From positions 1-35,992 of the IMG/VR virus record IMGVR_UViG_3300047678_000039: DNA of 35,992 nt. One strand, given 5' to 3'. Position 1 is the first letter of the stretch, and each line of letters opens with the position of its first letter. Under the pieces are notes generated by a model. It searched no databases, was not told where the DNA came from, and saw only the letters and a program-made list of their open reading frames with translations. The position numbers and the translations under genes are program-made. The stretch is from a virus. Below are positions 27,876-35,992 of the stretch, piece by piece.

Positions 27876-28150
27876 CCTATGGTGTTCGGACATTTGACGA
27901 GGCCGGCAATATTATCCTCGATACCAACAGCCGGATGGGGCGCGTCCTTGGGACAGCGCAGAGCGGCACAACCCCTGGCTCGCTGGTCCACGCGGGGTTC
28001 GCCGTTGGTGAGCCCTTCTGCATCGTCATACCCACAGGCACGGGAGTCCAGTGGGGTACGCCCCTCGTCAGCTTTTCAGGGACGACCATGTCCTGGAGCT
28101 GGCCTCGGGCGGCCAAGACGAACTGCAAGCTGCTTTACGGAGTTTACTAA
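27872..28150 (+). CDS. Small distal tail protein
   Basis: A 92-residue protein starting at GTG 27872 in a GTGA overlap with the gpJ-like gene. It begins TYGVRTFDEAGNIILDTNSRMGR, quoted as YGVRTFDEAGNIILD, which is a pattern of short proteins found after J genes and on distal tail fibres. The rest is a beta-rich domain (PGSLVHAGFAVGEPFCIVIP). The next gene opens with a similar YGFRI motif, so the two are probably paralogous tip proteins attached to the same structure. The next ATG overlaps its TAA. Confidence 0.65.
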   Translation: MTYGVRTFDEAGNIILDTNSRMGRVLGTAQSGTTPGSLVHAGFAVGEPFCIVIPTGTGVQWGTPLVSFSGTTMSWSWPRAAKTNCKLLYGVY

Positions 28151-28797
28151 TGACCGACCCTTATGGCTTCCGGATCGTAGGGGAGCACGGCGTCACCCAG
28201 GTTGATCAGGACTATAAGAACCTCGCGGTATGCGCCTCTGGTTCTCTCTCACCACCAAGCGACCCGACGACTTACATCAACGTGGTCTACACCGGGATCA
28301 ATCCTATCATCGCCTTCTCGTGCCCCCAAACCTATGTGGTCGCTGGACCTCATATAATCAGTGGCAACACCTGGACATTCCGACTCCGCGCACCGGCTGG
28401 GGGTTCCTTTACAATCAAATACTGGATCTTCGACGAGCCCCCTGGTCTGGGACTACCAACTCATGGGTTGGTTGTTCGGAATGAGGCCGGAGATATTACG
28501 TTCCGTAGCGACCACCGGTACATGCGGATTGCGAATTGGGTTCAGCAGAGCTTCAACGTGAACACCGAGACGTTCGCGCTCGATGTTGGGAGAAGCTATG
28601 CAGTCGTCTGCACTGGCGACACTCTCTTCAACCCCCCAAATGGTGAAGGCCCATGGCCAATGTATCAAATTGGTTTTAAGGTAAATGGTGGAGGAACAAT
28701 TAACAAAAGCTGGCCAATTGTGGGAAGTACAGTTATTGGGTTTATTCCCTTCGTCACGCAGTTCCTGATTGTCGATGTGACTGGATATCCCACTTAA
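28150..28797 (+). CDS. Distal tail or receptor-binding protein
   Basis: A 215-residue protein. ATG 28150 sits in a TAATG overlap; longer readings to 28051 lie inside the previous gene. DPYGFRIVGEHGVTQVDQDYKNL resembles the start of the preceding small protein, quoted as DPYGFRIVGEHG. The rest is beta-rich with many aromatic residues (GNTWTFRLRAPAGG, SFTIKYWIFDEPPG). The last 70 codons (28600-28797) are markedly AT-rich compared with the upstream tail genes, with many A/T third positions. That suggests a swapped receptor-binding tip. A terminator follows one gene later. Confidence 0.62.
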   Translation: MTDPYGFRIVGEHGVTQVDQDYKNLAVCASGSLSPPSDPTTYINVVYTGINPIIAFSCPQTYVVAGPHIISGNTWTFRLRAPAGGSFTIKYWIFDEPPGLGLPTHGLVVRNEAGDITFRSDHRYMRIANWVQQSFNVNTETFALDVGRSYAVVCTGDTLFNPPNGEGPWPMYQIGFKVNGGGTINKSWPIVGSTVIGFIPFVTQFLIVDVTGYPT

Positions 28798-28818
28798 CCC
28801 TAAACTTTGGAGAATACC

Positions 28819-29028
28819 GTGAAAAAGACTACCCTAATGCTGCTCGCTACTGCTCTGATCCTCGCCGGCTGCGGTGAAACTATCCCCCAGGCTTTTACCA
28901 CCCCCGGTTGGACCTTGGGCGTCGAATGTATCAACGGTCGGTTGATCCGCACGGCGACCAATAACGACACCGGGGAGGTGAAGCGCCAACCGGCTTTCGA
29001 CAGCATGGGACAGCCCATCCCCTGTTGA
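28819..29028 (+). CDS. Small lipoprotein
   Basis: A 69-residue protein. GTG 28819 has GGAG at the usual distance and starts a signal peptide: KKTTLMLLATALILAGC, with the lipobox LAGC and Cys at about position 17. The mature part is short (GETIPQAFTTPGWTLGVE), with two more Cys that could form a disulfide. It should be lipid-anchored in the host envelope. It is the last gene before a strong bidirectional terminator and lies straight after host-recognition genes, as do receptor-blocking lipoproteins of several phages. That role is inference; a host-derived morphology or lysis lipoprotein is also possible. Confidence 0.75.
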   Translation: MKKTTLMLLATALILAGCGETIPQAFTTPGWTLGVECINGRLIRTATNNDTGEVKRQPAFDSMGQPIPC

Positions 29029-29031
29029 TAC

Positions 29032-29060
29032 AAAAAACCCCCGCCTAGGCGGGGGTTTTT
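29032..29060 (+). terminator. Bidirectional intrinsic terminator between tail and nucleotide genes
   Basis: AAAAAA then CCCCCGC, loop CTAG, GCGGGGG, then TTTTT. The stem is perfect and A and T tracts flank it, so it can stop both the plus-strand tail operon and the minus-strand operon that ends at 29064. Confidence 0.9.
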
Positions 29061-29063
29061 CAT

Positions 29064-29657
29064 TCAGGTGATCCGACCGACCAACTTATTCACTTCTCGT
29101 TCCAGCTCCTCAATGGTGCTGTCGTTTCGGACCAGGTCCATCACCTCCGGATCGTAAGGGATGTCGAACGAACTGGTCGGCTCGGGTGGAACCCCCCGAC
29201 CGCTCGCATCGACCCAGACGATCTGGTCGAACAGGTGCTTCGCGGCCTCGAACTCGGTCGCTGATCGCATACCGACATAGAGATCGTGCTCCTTCAGGAT
29301 CTCTTCCGCCAACCGCGATCCGCCGCGGTTGTAGGCTGATATCGCCTCGTACCAGAACGCCCGCCAGTTCACCCGGTCTTCGTAGCAATTCTCGAGCGTG
29401 AGGTAGGAGACACCGCATGCAGCAAGCGCCGGCCGGACAGCCTTTTCAGCAGCGAAGAAGCTAGAGCTGGCGAACGAAAAGCCGTGGCTATCGCGCAGCA
29501 ACTCGGCCACCGTGTCCTTCCCATGCTGGGCGTGGCCCAGGATCAGGACCTTCGGACGCTTCGACTTCGGCGTCGGAACGCCGAAGTCGAAAGCATCCTC
29601 CAGTTTGTGTTGGTTGACGGCGCCCGTCTCGAGGGCGTCATTTGCATTTCCGTACAA
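29064..29657 (-). CDS. Deoxynucleoside monophosphate kinase-like P-loop protein
   Basis: A 197-residue protein. VLILGHAQHGKDTVAELL (residues 37-54) is a Walker A loop of the GxxxxGKDT type found in phage T4 gp1-like dNMP kinases and adenylate-kinase relatives. EDRVNWRAFWYEAI and VGMRSATEFEA fit the nucleotide-binding part; IVWVDASGR is the strand before a LID-like region. It would phosphorylate dTMP or other dNMPs using ATP, right after thymidylate synthase in the same operon. The start is TTG 29657 with GGAG 7 bases upstream. The first 33 residues are a non-conserved extension. It is the last gene of the minus-strand cluster. Confidence 0.8.
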   Translation of the reverse strand: MYGNANDALETGAVNQHKLEDAFDFGVPTPKSKRPKVLILGHAQHGKDTVAELLRDSHGFSFASSSFFAAEKAVRPALAACGVSYLTLENCYEDRVNWRAFWYEAISAYNRGGSRLAEEILKEHDLYVGMRSATEFEAAKHLFDQIVWVDASGRGVPPEPTSSFDIPYDPEVMDLVRNDSTIEELEREVNKLVGRIT

Positions 29658-29683
29658 TGGTATTCTCCAGGCCCCCTGGAAAA

Positions 29684-30667
29684 TCAGACTGAGACTTCCG
29701 CCCTGATTGCTGCGTGTGGGTAGTAGCCGACGAAGCCGACGTCCTTCGTTTCGAGGTCGAAGAGACCAACTCGCTCCGTCAGTTCCAGCGTCGGGAACGG
29801 ACGCGGCGTGCGGGTCAGCTGCTCGCGAGCCTGATCCACATGGTTCGCGTAGAGATGGACGTCGCCGAAGGTGTGGACGAAGTCCCCAACCTGCAGACCG
29901 ACCTCACGGGCGACCAGGTGAACCAGCAGCGCGTAGGACGCGATGTTGAACGGAACGCCGAGGAAGATGTCGGCCGAGCGCTGGTAGAGCTGGCACGACA
30001 GCTTGCCGTCCGAGACGAAGAACTGGAACAGGCAGTGGCACGGCGGAAGAGCCATGTCCGGGATCTCGACCGGGTTCCAGGCGGTGACGATGTGGCGCCG
30101 ACCGTAGGGGTCCTTCTTCAGGCCCTGGATCAGGTTCGCGATCTGGTCGACCTCCTTCGTCTCGATGAAGGTGAACACACCATCGGTACGCTCCCGCGCC
30201 GCGAGCCACGACCGCCACTGCTTACCATAGACCGGCCCAAGCTCACCGTCCTCGTCGGCCCACTCGTCCCAGATCGTGATGCCCTGCTCCTGCAATGGCT
30301 TCACGCTGGTCGAGCCGGACAGGAACCACAGCAGCTCGCCGATGATCGCCTTAGTGAACAGCTTCTTCGTCGTCAGGACCGGCAGGCCGTCGTCGAGGTT
30401 GAAGCGGATCTGGCGACCAAACAGACCATAGGTGCCGCCATTGCGACCCTCACGGTAGACGCCGTTCTCCAGGCAATCGCGCAGCAGATCGAGGTACTGA
30501 TACTCCGGGCTGTCGAACGCGAGCTGCTTGTCGTGGAAGATATGGTCCCACCCGTCAGCGTGACGGACGGAGCACTTCTCTTCGTCGGGATAGACGGCGA
30601 CGACCTTGCCGGTGAACGGGTAGCCGACGACCTTGCGAACCTTGTCGCCAATGCTGAACCGGCTCAC
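29684..30667 (-). CDS. thyA: Thymidylate synthase (ThyA type) with N-terminal SH3/KOW-like domain
   Basis: A 327-residue protein that converts dUMP to dTMP with methylene-tetrahydrofolate. The ThyA domain (from about residue 55) shows [39 protein letters not shown] (catalytic Cys210), [20 protein letters not shown] and YPHAAIRAE, quoted in pieces. Residues 4-50 ([17 protein letters not shown]...[10 protein letters not shown]) form an extra SH3/KOW-like domain. GTG 30667 is chosen because it makes a GTGA overlap with the small gene upstream; GTG 30679 and the frame to 30760 are less likely. It supplies dTTP for phage DNA synthesis together with the kinase downstream. Confidence 0.93.
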
Positions 30668-30792
30668 GAGAACAGCCACTTCACGGCTGCAGCGATGAGA
30701 ACGACCCGCGTGGCGATGCCGGCGACGATCAGGCTTCCGACGACTGCGAGGCCGAGGCACCCACAGCCGATAAGGGCGAAGTTAGATTTCAC
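30664..30792 (-). CDS. Tiny membrane protein, 42 residues
   Basis: A short gene reading [20 protein letters not shown], then [21 protein letters not shown]. It is almost wholly hydrophobic, with one or two membrane segments and a CGC motif. GTG 30792 has AAGGAG about 8 bases upstream. Both ends overlap neighbours in GTGA junctions: with the stop of the 79-residue gene and with the start of thymidylate synthase. That pattern, with the ribosome site, makes it a real gene despite its size. The function is unknown; a small membrane regulator or toxin-like peptide are guesses. Confidence 0.7.
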
Positions 30793-31028
30793 GAGTAGTG
30801 CTCCTTGAGCGCAGCCCACACCGAGCGGCCATTGAACAGCCGGCGCAGCACGTACTGGCGGATGATCGAGACCACGGTGAAAATGCCGGTGATGATGATG
30901 TTGGTGCTGAGCGGCATAGGGATGCCGAAGGCCAACGCGACGAAGTGCCAGGTGATCATGGAGACCACCAGGCCGATCGCGGTGTTGACCAGCGCCTCCA
31001 TGACGCTGTCGACCTTGCTCTGTTTCAC
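30789..31028 (-). CDS. Small two-helix membrane protein (DUF7220-like)
   Basis: A 79-residue protein with two membrane segments (LVNTAIGLVVSMITWHFVALAF and TNIIITGIFTVVSIIRQYVL, quoted as such in short parts) and a basic end RRLFNG. The pattern VMEALVNTAIG...FTVVSIIRQYVLRRLF matches small phage membrane proteins of the DUF7220 type, of unknown role. GTG 31028 follows GGAGG. It lies 1 base after the stop of the 124-residue gene and overlaps the 42-residue membrane gene by GTGA. Confidence 0.7.
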   Translation of the reverse strand: MKQSKVDSVMEALVNTAIGLVVSMITWHFVALAFGIPMPLSTNIIITGIFTVVSIIRQYVLRRLFNGRSVWAALKEHYS

Positions 31029-31029
31029 C

Positions 31030-31404
31030 TCAGACCTCCAGCTTGAAGTAGTGGGTGCGGTTGTTCGCCGGCCACCGAAGCGGGATCGAGTAGAGGATCA
31101 GCCAATCGCCATCGCGCCCGGTGACCATGTCGTGGGTGCCAGCCTCGTAGGCAGCACGCGCCGCGGCGATCTCGGGGATGGTATTGTCCCACGCCACGTG
31201 GGCGCGCTTCCGAGCAACGAAGAACTCCAGAAGTTCCGGACGGCCATTACCATCGAATTGTTCGGGTCGAGTAGCACGGGTAGCGCCACCGATCTCGTCT
31301 GCGACCTTCAGGACTTCCCGAATGTCGACCCCGAGGTTGCGAGCAACTTTGGCGGGGGCGCGAACCTTCCGCAGCTCTGCAATTATTTCATCACGAATTG
31401 TCAC
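31030..31404 (-). CDS. Uncharacterised protein with HTH-like N-terminus
   Basis: A 124-residue protein. Residues about 1-45 (RDEIIAELRKVRAPAKVARNLGVDIREVLKVADEIG) have the helix-turn-helix look of a DNA- or RNA-binding segment, quoted in part as APAKVARNLGVDIREVLKVA. The rest (PELLEFFVARKRAHVAWDNTIPEIAAARAAYEAGTHDMVTG) is a helical pattern seen in phage proteins of unknown function; only PELLEFFVARKRAHVAW is cited. GTG 31404 has GGAG 6 bases upstream, but that site is buried in a strong hairpin (31410-31455). It follows the SbcC-like gene. A self-controlling regulator is a reasonable guess and not shown. Confidence 0.6.
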   Translation of the reverse strand: MTIRDEIIAELRKVRAPAKVARNLGVDIREVLKVADEIGGATRATRPEQFDGNGRPELLEFFVARKRAHVAWDNTIPEIAAARAAYEAGTHDMVTGRDGDWLILYSIPLRWPANNRTHYFKLEV

Positions 31405-31409
31405 TTAAT

Positions 31410-31455
31410 ACTCCAGTTTGCCCTGAAGCCTCTTTGGCGCAGGACAAACTGGAGT
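31410..31455 (-). promoter_or_regulatory. Hairpin that sequesters the ribosome-binding site of the 124-residue gene
   Basis: On the minus-strand RNA, ACTCCAGTTTG pairs with CAAACTGGAGT (11 perfect pairs). Inside, a T-G wobble and CCTG/CAGG extend the stem to 16 pairs, and GCC/GGC closes an AAAGA loop beyond a small internal bulge. The 3' arm contains the GGAG used by GTG 31404, paired with the 5' ACTCC. No T run follows, so this is not an intrinsic terminator. It should block translation unless opened by a protein, ribosome movement or RNase. Confidence 0.75.
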
Positions 31456-31484
31456 GGAACGGCTCGCGAAATACTTACTTATGG

Positions 31485-33377
31485 TTAGAGCGCGATTTGC
31501 TGATCGGCCACGAAGTCGTCCTTGTGGGTGACCACGATGATCTGGGTCAGGAACTGCTTCAGGGACTGCAGCGTGTTGTGGGTGGTGGAGGCCCGGTCGC
31601 TGTCCATGTCCTTGTCGATCTCGTCGCCCATGAAGATCGGCAGCACCTTGCTCGTGAGAACCTGGCCCAGGCCGATCCGCAGAGCGAGGTTCACGACCGA
31701 CTTGCCCGACCCCGAGAGGGTCTGAAGCGGCTGACCATCGACCACGATGTTGAAGTCGTGATCCACAGCCACGTGCCGGCGTTCGCCGCCCGTCATGCTG
31801 GCGAGCAGGCTCGATGCCGCCACCGACAACGCCGGAGCCAGCTCCTGCTTCACCCGCAGACGGGTTGCCTTCAGAGCATCTGCGCCACGAGAGTACCCCT
31901 CGGCCGCATCACGCTTATCGGCCACTCGCTGTACCAGCTCGGTGTAGCGCGCTGCGTCGTTGCGATACCGATCAAGGTATCCCTCGTAGGAGCGGGCGTC
32001 ACTGGCTCGAGTCCGTAGCGCGAGAAGGTCCGTGGAGCGGTCTTCCATTGCCTCAACAGCTCGTCGCGCACCCTCGTAGGTATCCATTTCCGAACGATAG
32101 CGAGAAACTCGCTCGTCGTAGATGGCGCGATCCGACTGGTATGCTCGTGCAGCTCGAAGGTCTCCTGCGCGGTCAGCTGGCACTTGAATGTCTGCAAGCC
32201 GGTTGAGAACTCCAACTCGATCGTCGGTATGGGCATGGGCGAGAATTTCCTTCTGCATATTGGGGATGGTGAACTCGGCCACCTCAGCGAGCGGCTCGGC
32301 CCACAGTTCGTGACGACGGAACTGGCCCGTGATCTGGGCCACCGTCAGCTCGGGCTGGTTGCCCTCGGCGACAGCGAGGATCGCGGCGTCGATGTTGGGC
32401 ACGAAGTGATGCTGGCAGGCCGGGCAGTCGATGGCCTCGCGACCGGCGACCTGGGCCTTGGCATCCCACACCATCTCCATTGCCTTCAGGTCCTTCACCG
32501 AATACTCCGGCTTCGGACCACGGCGTGAGACCTCAGCCGCGTAGGTCTGGTAGGCCAGAGCCTTCTCCAGATCGCCGCGGCTGACGGTTGCCTCGGGCAT
32601 CCCTGCGAGCTGCCCCTCAAGCCGAGCCTTATCCTGCAGCGCCTTCTGTCGAACGGCCTCGTGCTCTTCGAGCGCGGCGACGTCGGTGTGATCCGGTGCG
32701 ACAGGCGCGGTCGGCTCCACAGGCTCCTTGACCAGCAGGAGCTGGTCGCGCTTCTGCTGGTGAGCCTGAACGTCGGCCAGGGTCTGTTCCAGGTTCAGGC
32801 TCGGCTCGTAGTCGTCTGGCTCCACCGGCTCGACCGGCTCAGCCATGCTGACGGCGAGGTTGGCCGCGACCGTCTCGTGCATCTTGGCCTCGGCCTTCAC
32901 TTCCTTCTCGATCGTCTCGATCACGTCGAGGCCGATGAGCTGGTCGACCATCGTGCGGCGCGCGGTCGGCTTCATCTCGGTCAGACGGCCAAGGTCGCCC
33001 TGCTGTGCAGCGCAGGCGACGTTGAAGACGTCCAAGCCAAAACCGAGCAGCGCCGGCACGGCCTTGTTGATGGCGTCAGCCCCAACGGCTTCGATGTTGC
33101 CATCGATCCACAGGGTCTCCTTCTTCGCGCGCTCGATGAGAACAGATTTCCCACGAGCCTCGAAAGCGAGAGTTGCGGCGAGCGATTTGTAGTCGCTGGC
33201 CTGACCACGCAGGGCTTTCGACCCAAATAGGCAATAGCCGATCATTTCAATGATGAGGGTTTTTCCCTTTTCGTTTCTTCCGGTGATGGCGGTTAACCCC
33301 GGTGCGAACTCAATCTGGTTCTCGAAGCACCTGCCAGTGGTAGGGAACTCGACCTTGTAGTTCAGACTTTTCAACAT
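31485..33377 (-). CDS. Rad50/SbcC-like SMC-family ATPase
   Basis: A 630-residue protein. Residues 33-40 (GRNEKGKT) are Walker A; VACAAQQGDLGRL carries the Q-loop; CPAC (318-321) sits between coiled coils as a zinc hook; LSGSGKSVVNLALRIGL is the ABC signature; PIFMGDEIDKDMD is Walker B with D-loop; VVTHKDDF is the H-loop. Such ATPases act with a Mre11/SbcD nuclease to process DNA ends, like T4 gp46. No partner nuclease is next to it. ATG 33377 has GGAG 8 bases upstream. It is the first gene of the minus-strand cluster and diverges from the lysis genes. Confidence 0.88.
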   Translation of the reverse strand: MLKSLNYKVEFPTTGRCFENQIEFAPGLTAITGRNEKGKTLIIEMIGYCLFGSKALRGQASDYKSLAATLAFEARGKSVLIERAKKETLWIDGNIEAVGADAINKAVPALLGFGLDVFNVACAAQQGDLGRLTEMKPTARRTMVDQLIGLDVIETIEKEVKAEAKMHETVAANLAVSMAEPVEPVEPDDYEPSLNLEQTLADVQAHQQKRDQLLLVKEPVEPTAPVAPDHTDVAALEEHEAVRQKALQDKARLEGQLAGMPEATVSRGDLEKALAYQTYAAEVSRRGPKPEYSVKDLKAMEMVWDAKAQVAGREAIDCPACQHHFVPNIDAAILAVAEGNQPELTVAQITGQFRRHELWAEPLAEVAEFTIPNMQKEILAHAHTDDRVGVLNRLADIQVPADRAGDLRAARAYQSDRAIYDERVSRYRSEMDTYEGARRAVEAMEDRSTDLLALRTRASDARSYEGYLDRYRNDAARYTELVQRVADKRDAAEGYSRGADALKATRLRVKQELAPALSVAASSLLASMTGGERRHVAVDHDFNIVVDGQPLQTLSGSGKSVVNLALRIGLGQVLTSKVLPIFMGDEIDKDMDSDRASTTHNTLQSLKQFLTQIIVVTHKDDFVADQQIAL

Positions 33378-33389
33378 GCAGGATACTCC
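33378..33389. promoter_or_regulatory. 12-bp divergent gap holding both ribosome-binding sites
   Basis: Only GCAGGATACTCC separates the ATG of the minus-strand ATPase gene from the GTG of the first lysis-cassette gene. AGGA serves the plus gene (6-base spacing), and GGAG on the other strand serves the minus gene (8-base spacing). Any promoter for either gene must lie inside the other's coding sequence or further away. Confidence 0.7.
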
Positions 33390-33779
33390 GTGAACGACCA
33401 GCAACACTCGATCGAAGTCAAGGCGCTGGTGGATGCAATTACCTCGTCCAATAAGCGTCCGGACGAGGGTTTGGCTCTAGGGAAAAACGTCAACATCTTA
33501 CTTATGAGTGCGATTGGTGCTGCCGGCGCGCTCGTCTGGAGTGTTGTCGCGCCTTCGGCGAACATCACCGACCTTTCGCGCCAAACTGCCGAGATCCGAA
33601 CGACCGTCCTCGAGATGCGGACGATGTTTACCGACCTCTCGCAGAAGCTCGACAAGAGCCAGGCGGCTCAGTCGGAGCAGCAGGCCAAGCTGGTTGGCCT
33701 CGAAGCCAAAGTCACCAGCAACAGCGACAACATCGAAAAGCTCTCCGAGCGGCTCTCTGACATGGAGCGCAAGTGGTGA
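33390..33779 (+). CDS. Membrane-anchored coiled-coil protein of the lysis cassette
   Basis: A 129-residue protein. Residues 34-56 (VNILLMSAIGAAGALVWSVVA) form one membrane segment. Residues about 60-128 are a coiled coil (LSRQTAEIRTTVLEMRTMFTDLSQKLDKSQ, quoted as TVLEMRTMFTDLSQKLDK). It precedes the endolysin gene and ends within its GTG. A holin or holin regulator is possible, but class III holins are usually shorter. A membrane-linked scaffold is another option. GTG 33390 has AGGA inside the divergent gap. Confidence 0.62.
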   Translation: MNDQQHSIEVKALVDAITSSNKRPDEGLALGKNVNILLMSAIGAAGALVWSVVAPSANITDLSRQTAEIRTTVLEMRTMFTDLSQKLDKSQAAQSEQQAKLVGLEAKVTSNSDNIEKLSERLSDMERKW

Positions 33780-34456
33780 TCATCGCCAATCAGATCGACC
33801 TCGGTCTCATGAAGATCGCGTTCCCGACCAGCAAGGCCGCGGACCTGATCCCCTGGATCGAACCCTTCCAGAAGGCATGCAAGGAGTTCGGGATCGACAC
33901 GATCCGCGAGCTGGCCAGCTTCCTCGGTAACATCGCCGTCGAAAGCCAGGACCTCCGCAGCTTCTCCGAGAACCTCAACTACTCCGTCGCTGGCCTGCTC
34001 AGCACGTTTGGCCGTCACCGCATCACTGCGGCGGACTGCCAGCGTCTCGGGCGCAAGCCTGGCGAGGGTGCCCTCTCTCATGATCGTCAGCGTCAGATCG
34101 CCAACCTGATCTACGGTGGCGAGTGGGGCCGTATCAATCTCGGCAACATCAAGGCCGACGACGGTTGGAACTTCCGCGGGTACGGACCGAAGCAGCTGAC
34201 AGGCCGCGCGAACCATGAGGCATTCGCACGGGCCATCGGCAAGCGTGTCGAGGAGATCCCCGACTATATCCGTACCCGCGAAGGGGGCGCCCGATCGGCA
34301 GGTTGGTTCTGGAAGAGCCACAACCTGGACCCCAAGGCGGCTACCCCCGGCGTCGAAGACGATCGCAAGGCCATCAACGGGGGCTTTCTCGGAGTCGAAA
34401 TCTTGAAGAAGCGCTTCGACCTTCTGGTCGCTGAACTGCTGCGTCGGGGCTGCTGA
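33773..34456 (+). CDS. Endolysin, GH19 chitinase-like lysozyme
   Basis: A 227-residue protein. LASFLGNIAVESQDLRSFSENLNYS (about 45-69) has the Glu-containing AVES and SENLNY motifs of phage GH19 endolysins. GWNFRGYGPKQLTGRANHEAFARA (about 123-146) is the second family signature; each is quoted in part. It cuts the sugar backbone of peptidoglycan at lysis. No signal peptide is seen, so a holin is needed for export. GTG 33773 and GTG 33776 are adjacent, with GGAG at 33764-33767; 33776 has the better spacing. The stop overlaps the next ATG. Confidence 0.85.
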   Translation: MVIIANQIDLGLMKIAFPTSKAADLIPWIEPFQKACKEFGIDTIRELASFLGNIAVESQDLRSFSENLNYSVAGLLSTFGRHRITAADCQRLGRKPGEGALSHDRQRQIANLIYGGEWGRINLGNIKADDGWNFRGYGPKQLTGRANHEAFARAIGKRVEEIPDYIRTREGGARSAGWFWKSHNLDPKAATPGVEDDRKAINGGFLGVEILKKRFDLLVAELLRRGC

Positions 34457-34791
34457 TGGGCTGGCTCCGCAACGCGCTGTGCGCGATGATCAATCTGAAC
34501 GACGACCAACGCCAGACGATGACCACCTGGTCGATGTTGGGCGGTGCGATCGCCAGCACGGGCGTCATCGCCGGCCTGATCTACATCATGCGCTACTCGT
34601 GGCCGGATGCGATCATCCAGCTGCACGCCGCGCTGATCATCGGCGGGCTGTTCAATGTCATCTACGGCTTCATGGGCCTGGTCGGCATCATGGTCATTGC
34701 CCAGGCGGTGATCGCCATTGGTGGCAAGATGAAGGCGTCCTTCGGCGGGGCCTCACTCGAAGCTGAGGCTGAGAAACGTGATCACAACTAA
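34456..34791 (+). CDS. Holin candidate
   Basis: A 111-residue membrane protein starting at ATG in a TGATG overlap with the endolysin. Segments about 29-46 (LGGAIASTGVIAGLIYIM), 55-75 and 73-96 (LVGIMVIAQAVIAIGG) are hydrophobic, so two or three membrane helices are likely. The C-terminus is charged (EAEAEKRDHN), usual for holins. Position between endolysin and spanin genes supports a holin that triggers lysis. No dual-start motif was found. Confidence 0.68.
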   Translation: MGWLRNALCAMINLNDDQRQTMTTWSMLGGAIASTGVIAGLIYIMRYSWPDAIIQLHAALIIGGLFNVIYGFMGLVGIMVIAQAVIAIGGKMKASFGGASLEAEAEKRDHN

Positions 34792-35248
34792 ACTCCTCGG
34801 CTACGGCCTCGCTGGTTCACTTCTTATCTCTGGCGGTCTGGGCATCGCGTTGGCAGTTTCCAACCATCGTCTCTCGAGCGCAAAGGAGGTGATCCTAGTT
34901 CTTGACCGATGGCAAGACGGAGTGATTGGAAGCCTCCGTCTTGCCTCGGGAAACAACGAGGTCACCGCCGACACAGCTCAGCTGCAGATCGCCGCCCTCG
35001 GAAATTCTCTCGTCACACTGCACTCCAGCCTGAAGCAGAGCAACGACGCGGTCGACAAGCTGGCCGAGGACGCGGCCCGCGCTCAGGCTCTGGCTCAGAA
35101 AGAGGCTCAGGCTCGTGCCGCGGCGATCAAGAAGGCAGATCAACTGGCAGCACAGCTGCACGCGGGGGCAGCAACGTCAGTGGCACCGGAGGAGATCGAA
35201 GCCGAGATCCGCCGCACCCAGGACGAACTTTACGAGGCCAGCCTGTGA
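34778..35248 (+). CDS. i-spanin (Rz-like)
   Basis: A 156-residue protein with an N-terminal membrane anchor (LLGYGLAGSLLISGGLGIALAV, quoted in part) and a long Ala/Glu/Lys-rich coiled coil in the periplasmic part (KLAEDAARAQALAQKEAQAR). It should link the inner membrane to the o-spanin and fuse the membranes at the last step of lysis. GTG 34778 lies inside the holin gene. Its stop overlaps the start of the o-spanin gene in a GTGA junction. Rz proteins of this size are usual. Confidence 0.8.
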   Translation: MITTKLLGYGLAGSLLISGGLGIALAVSNHRLSSAKEVILVLDRWQDGVIGSLRLASGNNEVTADTAQLQIAALGNSLVTLHSSLKQSNDAVDKLAEDAARAQALAQKEAQARAAAIKKADQLAAQLHAGAATSVAPEEIEAEIRRTQDELYEASL

Positions 35249-35538
35249 AGCACCTACTCCTTGCCATCCTGCTGATCGGCATGCTCCCTCTCGCCGGCTG
35301 CGCGCACGTGACCCCGCCTCCGGTGATCAAGGAGGTCGCCGTCGAGGTGAAGGTTCCGGTTCAGGTTCCCTGCGTGAAGGATCGGCCGGGCGAGGTCACC
35401 GCGCTCAACACGGTCATCAGCCGCAGCGAGTGGGATGAGTTATCCACAGATCAGCGCGAGAAGCTGCTCGGATCGCAGAGCATGAACCGCAAGGGGTTCG
35501 GCGATCGACTGGTCGTCGCCACAGCTGGCTGCACATAA
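35245..35538 (+). CDS. o-spanin lipoprotein (Rz1-like)
   Basis: A 97-residue lipoprotein. KHLLLAILLIGMLPLAGC is a signal peptide with lipobox LAGC, followed by a Pro-containing stretch (HVTPPPVIKEVAVEVKVPVQVPC), quoted in part. It should sit in the inner leaflet of the outer membrane and bind the i-spanin. It is longer than lambda Rz1 and not nested within Rz; the genes only overlap by GTGA. A bidirectional terminator follows the stop directly, so it ends the lysis operon. Confidence 0.82.
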   Translation: MKHLLLAILLIGMLPLAGCAHVTPPPVIKEVAVEVKVPVQVPCVKDRPGEVTALNTVISRSEWDELSTDQREKLLGSQSMNRKGFGDRLVVATAGCT

Positions 35539-35569
35539 AAAGGCCCCCGTGATTAACGGGGGCCTTCTT
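35537..35569 (+). terminator. Bidirectional intrinsic terminator after the lysis operon
   Basis: AAAAA, GGCCCCCGT (35542-35550), loop GATTA, ACGGGGGCC (35556-35564), TTCTT. The 9-bp stem ends the lysis operon. With the A tract on the other side, it can also stop minus-strand transcripts coming from the att side. Confidence 0.88.
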
Positions 35570-35790
35570 CAATGTGGAACGAAGTCTCGGATCAGACGCT
35601 GGACCCTCTGGCGCATGAAGGTCAGGGCGTGGTCCTTGTTCTTCGGTGTGGAAGCCAGATCCATTGAGTGAACCGGGCCACCGTCTGGCAACGTGATCTT
35701 GAGCTTCTGGTGGCCATCGGTTCGAGACCGCGCCCAGCTTGGCGTTGACGACGTGCGGGCCGCGCGGCGAGTTCCCTGAAAGTCCCCTGA
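35569..35790 (-). pseudogene. Probable remnant of a small HicA-like gene
   Basis: On the minus strand one frame reads DGHQKLKITLPDGGPVHSMD through HALTFMRQRVQRLIRDFVPH and stops at 35569. This has the look of HicA-type small proteins (a His followed by strand and DG turn). No ATG or GTG precedes it in frame. A neighbouring frame reads GPHVVNAKLGAVSN just upstream, and one base removed near 35719 would join the two. I read it as a frameshifted, start-less leftover near the att site. The family call is weak and the stretch could be a false ORF. Confidence 0.35.
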
Positions 35791-35811
35791 AAATTCAGGG
35801 GCGTCCCTGAA
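35773..35811. repeat. TCCCTGAA repeats beside the att core
   Basis: TCCCTGAA occurs at 35773-35780, as TCCCCTGAA at 35783-35791 and as TCCCTGAA at 35804-35811, with an inverted TTCAGGGG at 35794-35801. The middle two form a short hairpin (CCCCTGA, loop AAAT, TCAGGGG). Such clustered repeats 60-100 bases from an att core are what integrase arm-type sites look like, but no integrase is available to test this. Confidence 0.5.
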
Positions 35812-35866
35812 TAAGTGCCGATTAGTTGTTTAGTTTCATGTGGTTAGGCAAGTTCACTCCTGAGCT

Positions 35867-35910
35867 TCCTAATCTGGGGGCCATGGGTTCGAATCCCGTC
35901 GGGCGCACCA
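35867..35910 (+). other. Attachment-site core: 3' part of a tRNA-Arg(CCT) gene
   Basis: 35868-35870 is the anticodon CCT in loop TTCCTAA; TCTGG follows as the 3' anticodon stem. ATGGG TTCGAAT CCCGT (35883-35899) is a good T arm, and CGGGCGC (35900-35906) is the 3' acceptor strand before ACCA. The upstream bases do not give the paired anticodon stem (TGAGC against TCTGG), D arm or acceptor 5' strand, so this is not a complete tRNA. It is the identity segment of an att site whose crossover lies in the anticodon loop. An imperfect inverted repeat at 35844-35872 overlaps its left end. Confidence 0.75.
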
Positions 35911-35921
35911 CCGCGGTCGGT

Positions 35922-35992
35922 TCAGTTCGCCTCGCCAGGCGGAACCACGCGAAACGGCAGTGGCACCAGTTCGATACCTTCCTCGAAGAGTT
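35922..35992 (-). CDS. C-terminal end of an unidentified gene, cut by the window edge
   Basis: Reading the minus strand from 35990, the sequence encodes LFEEGIELVPLPFRVVPPGEAN and then TGA at 35924-35922. The codons are GC-rich, as in a host gene or a phage gene. It lies just beyond the tRNA fragment, so in a prophage it would be chromosomal DNA next to the insertion site. It does not resemble the end of a tyrosine integrase, though only 22 residues are visible. Confidence 0.45.
   Translation of the reverse strand, partial: LFEEGIELVPLPFRVVPPGEAN

Follow-up and report, generated by a model that had tools for sequence, protein, structure and literature searches.

A hairpin over the ribosome site of a conserved SbcC-adjacent phage gene, maintained by compensatory change and likely to act as a translational lock

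Masked ribosome sites are an already known type of control in phages, and in the literature considered here most of the locks described for DNA phages belong to the T4 group. T4 genes e, soc, 49, I-TevI, and segB, as well as mobE of phage Aeh1, are preceded by hairpins that mask the ribosome site: a stable helix pairs the Shine-Dalgarno (SD) sequence on long transcripts started upstream, so that the gene is silent, and a late promoter within the 5' strand of the helix lets late transcripts escape (PMC2988022, PMC3014915). In a second class of systems, namely, MS2 coat-replicase, f1 VII-IX, and rpmI-rplT, the SD of the downstream gene is masked and coupling occurs by RNA unfolding (PMC12548453, PMC9894550). 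A third case is the strong hairpin of seg43(25), which stands beside the ribosome-binding site in the replication region of Aeromonas phage 25 (PMC2988022).

The locus described here lies in a virus record with a tailed-phage-like genome, from a virus of bacteria, and the whole stretch of 35,992 bases that was analyzed is referred to as the window (W). P1 is the name used for the gene of a 124-residue protein downstream of the hairpin. The gene order on the minus strand is ATPase, linker, hairpin, P1, DUF7220, a membrane-like open reading frame (ORF), thymidylate synthase, and a dNMP-kinase-like gene (Table 1). The operon ends in a bidirectional terminator-like palindrome at 29033-29060 that is flanked by A and T runs, and a palindrome of the same kind is found at 35537-35569, at the end of the rightmost plus-strand genes. 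Following the stem in order, there are 11 Watson-Crick pairs, one U-G pair, and four further pairs. A spacer of 6 nt separates GGAG from the GTG at 31404, which is the sole in-frame start ahead of the conserved part of P1, and relatives start at the matching codon. The anatomy given by the original prediction, i.e., a 16-pair stem with an inner GCC/GGC stem, GGAG in the 3' arm 6 nt before GTG, and no T run, agrees exactly with the sequence and its fold. The bases TATTAAGTG stand after the stem in place of a T run, and no Rfam covariance model matched at its gathering score anywhere in the window.

Table 1. Features at and around the P1 start in the window
Feature	Positions	Strand	Description and basis
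SbcC/Rad50-like ATPase gene	31485..33377	-	likely start ATG 33377; Pfam SMC_N/AAA_23, phrog_77
Linker of 29 nt, ATPase stop codon to stem	31456..31484	-	sequence
Hairpin 5' arm	31440..31455	-	ACTCCAGTTTGTCCTG; first bases complementary to SD; sequence, fold, inverted repeat I4
Hairpin loop	31426..31439	-	inner 3-bp GCC/GGC stem, 31438-31436 with 31430-31428; fold
Hairpin 3' arm	31410..31425	-	CAGGGCAAACTGGAGT; sequence, fold, inverted repeat
Shine-Dalgarno GGAG within 3' arm	31411..31414	-	sequence, pairing probability, spacing shared with L002/L007 and L008
GTG start codon of P1	31402..31404	-	start position conserved in relatives
P1, 124-aa protein	31030..31404	-	family directly downstream of SbcC-like gene in most relatives
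DUF7220 gene	30789..31028	-	Pfam PF23858; GTG 31028
Small membrane-like ORF	30664..30792	-	GTGA overlaps with DUF7220 and thymidylate synthase; sequence
Thymidylate synthase gene	29684..30667	-	PF00303; GTG overlaps preceding stop

As in the T4-type masks, a stable helix pairs the SD in the window. The hairpin differs from them in that no promoter-like site was found at it: a scan for sigma-70-like promoters over 28000-35992 returned no site and hence none in or after the 5' arm, the phage's own promoters, late ones included, being possibly different from the consensus scanned. In addition, P1 is neither a homing endonuclease nor a lysis gene but a conserved neighbor of the SbcC-like and thymidylate synthase (TS) genes. 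The masked downstream SD near the end of the upstream gene is shared with the unfolding-coupled systems, but the ATPase stop is located 29 nt before the stem, which should be too far for the upstream ribosome to affect it.

The occlusion of the SD is pronounced in all calculations made. The hairpin alone has a folding energy of -31.5 kcal/mol; the fold of 76 nt amounts to -32.9 kcal/mol (z -5.1), a value equaled by none of 200 dinucleotide shuffles. The probability that GGAG pairs with the 5' arm is at least 0.996 in contexts of up to -300/+200 nt, and 17.1 kcal/mol is needed to open the SD region, as compared to 4.2 +/- 2.0 kcal/mol in shuffles that preserve the SD (0/200). The prediction that the hairpin hides the P1 ribosome site is thus borne out computationally, with the SD paired inside a stable helix. 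Among 334 gene starts of these loci, of which those within the P1 family were partly picked by an SD rule, the mean opening energy is 5.0 kcal/mol and the 99th percentile 15.3 kcal/mol, and a few other genes also have starts with a high opening energy.

Relatives of P1 and of the ATPase were taken from IMG/VR, in which L002 and L007 are one contig; no record of the annotated phage collection matches P1 directly, and scans of genome contigs did not find P1 relatives. The closest relatives, L002 and L008, share 62% and 67% identity in P1 and 63% and 58% in the ATPase, and together with the window they form a clade (SH-aLRT 98). Both possess a hairpin of 16 to 20 pairs at the equivalent place, after the SbcC-like ATPase gene and before P1: CTCCGAGTTGCC-G-CTGA...TCAG-G-GGCAACTCGGAG-TAAACA-GTG in L002, with one mismatch within the stem, and ACTCCAATGCCCTGGTGACA...TGTCACCGGGGCATTGGAGT-TTTTT-GTG in L008. 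In all three sequences GGAG occupies the outermost pairs and is followed by a 6-base spacer to GTG. Stem pairs were numbered by position from the stem base, and MAFFT misaligned the arms of the three hairpins. Pairs 2 to 5, which comprise the SD complement, are identical in W, L002, and L008, whereas 9 of the 11 inner pairs (6 to 16) are changed on both sides, a covariation that, coming from three sequences, is strong per pair and limited in number. Each hairpin pairs 10 to 11 of its 11 inner positions with its own arm, as against 4 to 8 when arms are swapped between relatives. The structure is therefore retained through compensatory change, the very feature whose lack had been named in advance as grounds for refutation.

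Two L002 features stand apart from the comparison. At L002:3813-3840 there is a mini-ORF, MFPPSCR, whose ATG overlaps the stop of the ATPase gene and which terminates within the 5' arm of the hairpin, and a 12-base direct repeat, AGTAAACAGTGA, is present on both sides of the P1 start. An opening of the stem by translation of such a mini-ORF was considered and rejected, since only L002 has one (UGAUG, MFPPSCR) and it is absent from W and L008. Read-through by frameshifting was discarded because the gap of 80, 57, and 84 nt is not constant modulo 3. A mobile repeat was dismissed as well: both arms co-occur only once in the window, and the arm 10-mers recur in four viral contigs (L009-L012), none of which encodes any protein of the window's operon.

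The same comparison bears on the proposal that the inverted repeat is a DNA operator or an RNA target, either of the P1 protein in an autoregulatory circuit or of thymidylate synthase. In its favor, the repeat adjoins a gene that has weakly Fis/HTH-like relatives, but the arms are not conserved along with the protein: any two of W, L002, and L008 have just 2 to 6 of the 11 inner arm bases in common. With P1 62 to 67% identical, this turnover makes sequence-specific binding by the 124-residue protein unlikely. Moreover, the U-G wobbles in W and L008 can form solely in the coding-strand RNA, which fits a one-strand RNA. This proposal is considered highly improbable. As to the protein itself, the HTH-like start claimed originally has a faint counterpart in the relatives, which match HTH_8 (Fis) at an E value of 5e-4, just under the Pfam cut-off; the window protein has no Pfam or PHROG family match, and its N terminus may be weakly Fis/HTH-like.

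A scan of 722 kb of these loci found GGAG together with a start codon and an ORF no shorter than 60 codons at 478 sites, and the three longest stems, with 17, 17, and 20 pairs (next, 12), are those of W, L007 (i.e., L002), and L008, all at the orthologous gene P1. A neutral or chance structure, or a stem that stabilizes the mRNA and has no translational role, would be in keeping with the several relatives that do without a hairpin; however, this orthology of the best 3 of 478 sites and the compensatory turnover at a constant SD register and spacing render it improbable. Much the same standing is given to an intrinsic terminator that overlaps the ribosome site by chance. Six T residues follow the 20-bp stem of L008, and TTTT is present in L069 and L036, but no T run exists in the window or in L002 (TAAACAGTG), the terminator scan lists none at the hairpin, and it is the stem-embedded SD and its 6-nt spacing that the hairpins have in common, rather than the tail.

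On these grounds, it is likely that the hairpin is a cis-acting, selected lock on the ribosome site of P1, which would lower P1 translation and would be kept for that reason. On transcripts that carry the SbcC-like gene together with the intact hairpin, the P1 SD would be paired and loading of the 30S subunit hardly possible, so that P1 would be off or expressed at a very low level. The 30S subunit is a poor competitor against a helix of about -30 kcal/mol, as known from work on MS2.

How the lock would be opened is the least certain step. One reading holds that ribosomes that finish the ATPase gene either open the hairpin or start anew at P1, which would tie P1 to SbcC output. There is good documentation of coupling at masked sites (PMC12548453); in most relatives P1 overlaps the stop of SbcC or directly adjoins it, and one group of them carries the hairpin within the coding end of SbcC. 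However, the distance from stop to stem is 29 nt in the window and 31 nt in L008, beyond the reach of a terminating ribosome, and only the 7 nt of L002 permit coupling; in f1 VII-IX, coupling was lost when the stop was shifted to a site well ahead of the hairpin (PMC12548453). Furthermore, P1 no longer adjoins SbcC in L003, L034, and L036. Coupling is accordingly an unlikely explanation of the hairpin, and opening by translation of the ATPase gene, one of the routes originally suggested, is disfavored in the window phage.

Given this distance and the f1 result, removal of the 5' arm would be a more probable way to open the window hairpin than unfolding by ATPase-terminating ribosomes. It might occur by an RNase III cut in the stem of 16 to 20 bp or on a transcript that starts inside or after the 5' arm, in the manner of T4 genes e and I-TevI (PMC2988022, PMC3014915). 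RNase III is known to open masked sites elsewhere, as in adhE and the lambda N leader. That the stem serves primarily as a site at which RNase III or another endonuclease separates the message of SbcC from that of P1 and exposes the SD can be entertained tentatively, possibly as the opener of the lock: an enzyme specific for double strands would go well with stems of 16 to 20 pairs whose sequence is not conserved, although the type-B stems of a second group of relatives, described below, have merely 8 to 11 pairs. No conserved opener was found, and permanently low P1 expression in which no opener takes part is possible.

In the majority of the relatives obtained, P1 homologues come next after the SbcC-like gene and usually overlap or abut its stop; outside this clade, their ribosome sites are masked in other ways or not at all. 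The second group (L069/L106, L036/L037, L034, and L109) has unrelated SD-masking stems of about 8 to 11 pairs around GGAGA, followed by TTTTG; in L069/L105 no in-frame start other than this TTG precedes the conserved part, and in L036/L107 and L109 it is the first of them. A weaker mask, ACTCC-GACAA-GGAGT plus outer pairs, is present in L003, with an opening energy of 12.8 kcal. In a third group (L032, L035, L039, L040, L042, L044, and L046) the hairpin lies inside the last SbcC codons and is stronger than expected from randomization of synonymous codons (0 to 6 of 200 as strong). Unfolding coupling fits such SbcC-internal hairpins, for example that of L044, better than it fits the window: here SbcC ribosomes would open the hairpin directly, and in L002, with its stop 7 nt before the stem, opening by SbcC ribosomes may also be suitable. 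In L003, L034, and L036 other genes separate SbcC from P1, yet the hairpin remains at P1.

No unusual occlusion of the P1 SD was observed in L027 (the sister of the hairpin clade), L070, L099, L101-L103, L029-L031, and Caulobacter phage Seuss, and the hairpin, which in this form is borne by three sequences only, is thus not essential to the family. It is relatives L027 and L103 that the seg43(25) hairpin resembles, and its ribosome-binding site is outside the stem, whereas that of the window hairpin is inside. The tree requires six changes of the occlusion label, five of them forced by well-supported branches, the label being threshold-based and L034 and L036 having been scored as unmasked before their hairpins were found. 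It is conceivable, if doubtful, that P1 locks evolved several times independently, that the lock of the window lies beyond the reach of SbcC ribosomes, and that an opener controlled by phage or host (processing, a helicase, or a ligand) times P1. As separate observations, changes of SbcC C-terminal residues in L032, L035, L039, L042, L044, and L046 appear correlated so as to preserve the stem over the P1 ribosome site, for example Gln with Glu-Leu-Glu and Ala with Ala-Val-Gly, and at L036:6729 the start of the thymidylate synthase gene downstream of P1 is likewise strongly SD-occluded (16.2 kcal/mol).

What is new at this locus is the present member of a known control type, its comparative support, and the repeated occurrence of different masks at one undescribed gene, P1. 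The retention of structure while sequence turns over, together with the recurrence of unrelated locks at P1, argues that the dose of P1 matters to the phage; with the sequence almost completely changed and the hairpin retained, evolution seems to protect an off-switch of P1. The family also offers a natural series for the relation between coupling and distance, with the upstream stop inside the hairpin, 7, 29, or 31 nt before it, or with genes between.

The reach of the proposed lock is narrower than had been suggested. Control of the whole downstream set was part of the original prediction, but DUF7220 has its own GGAGG 6 bases ahead of its GTG, with an opening energy of just 3.1 kcal/mol. 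Since this SD is its own and accessible, neither DUF7220 nor the genes coupled with it have to rely on translation of P1. Further along the same minus-strand operon, a smaller second masked ribosome site, TTCCAGG-GGG-CCTGGAG, is located at 29657-29683 (opening energy, 7.6 kcal/mol), right after the thymidylate synthase stop and before the TTG that is the putative start of the kinase-like gene. Within the frame of the latter, perfect 14-base palindromic arms, TTCGACTTCGGCGT and ACGCCGAAGTCGAA, are found at 29560-29591 (z -6). The minus-strand ATPase gene and a plus-strand gene diverge at 33377-33392 with their starts within about 15 bases of each other, and their two SD sequences are the opposite strands of one AGGATACTCC stretch.
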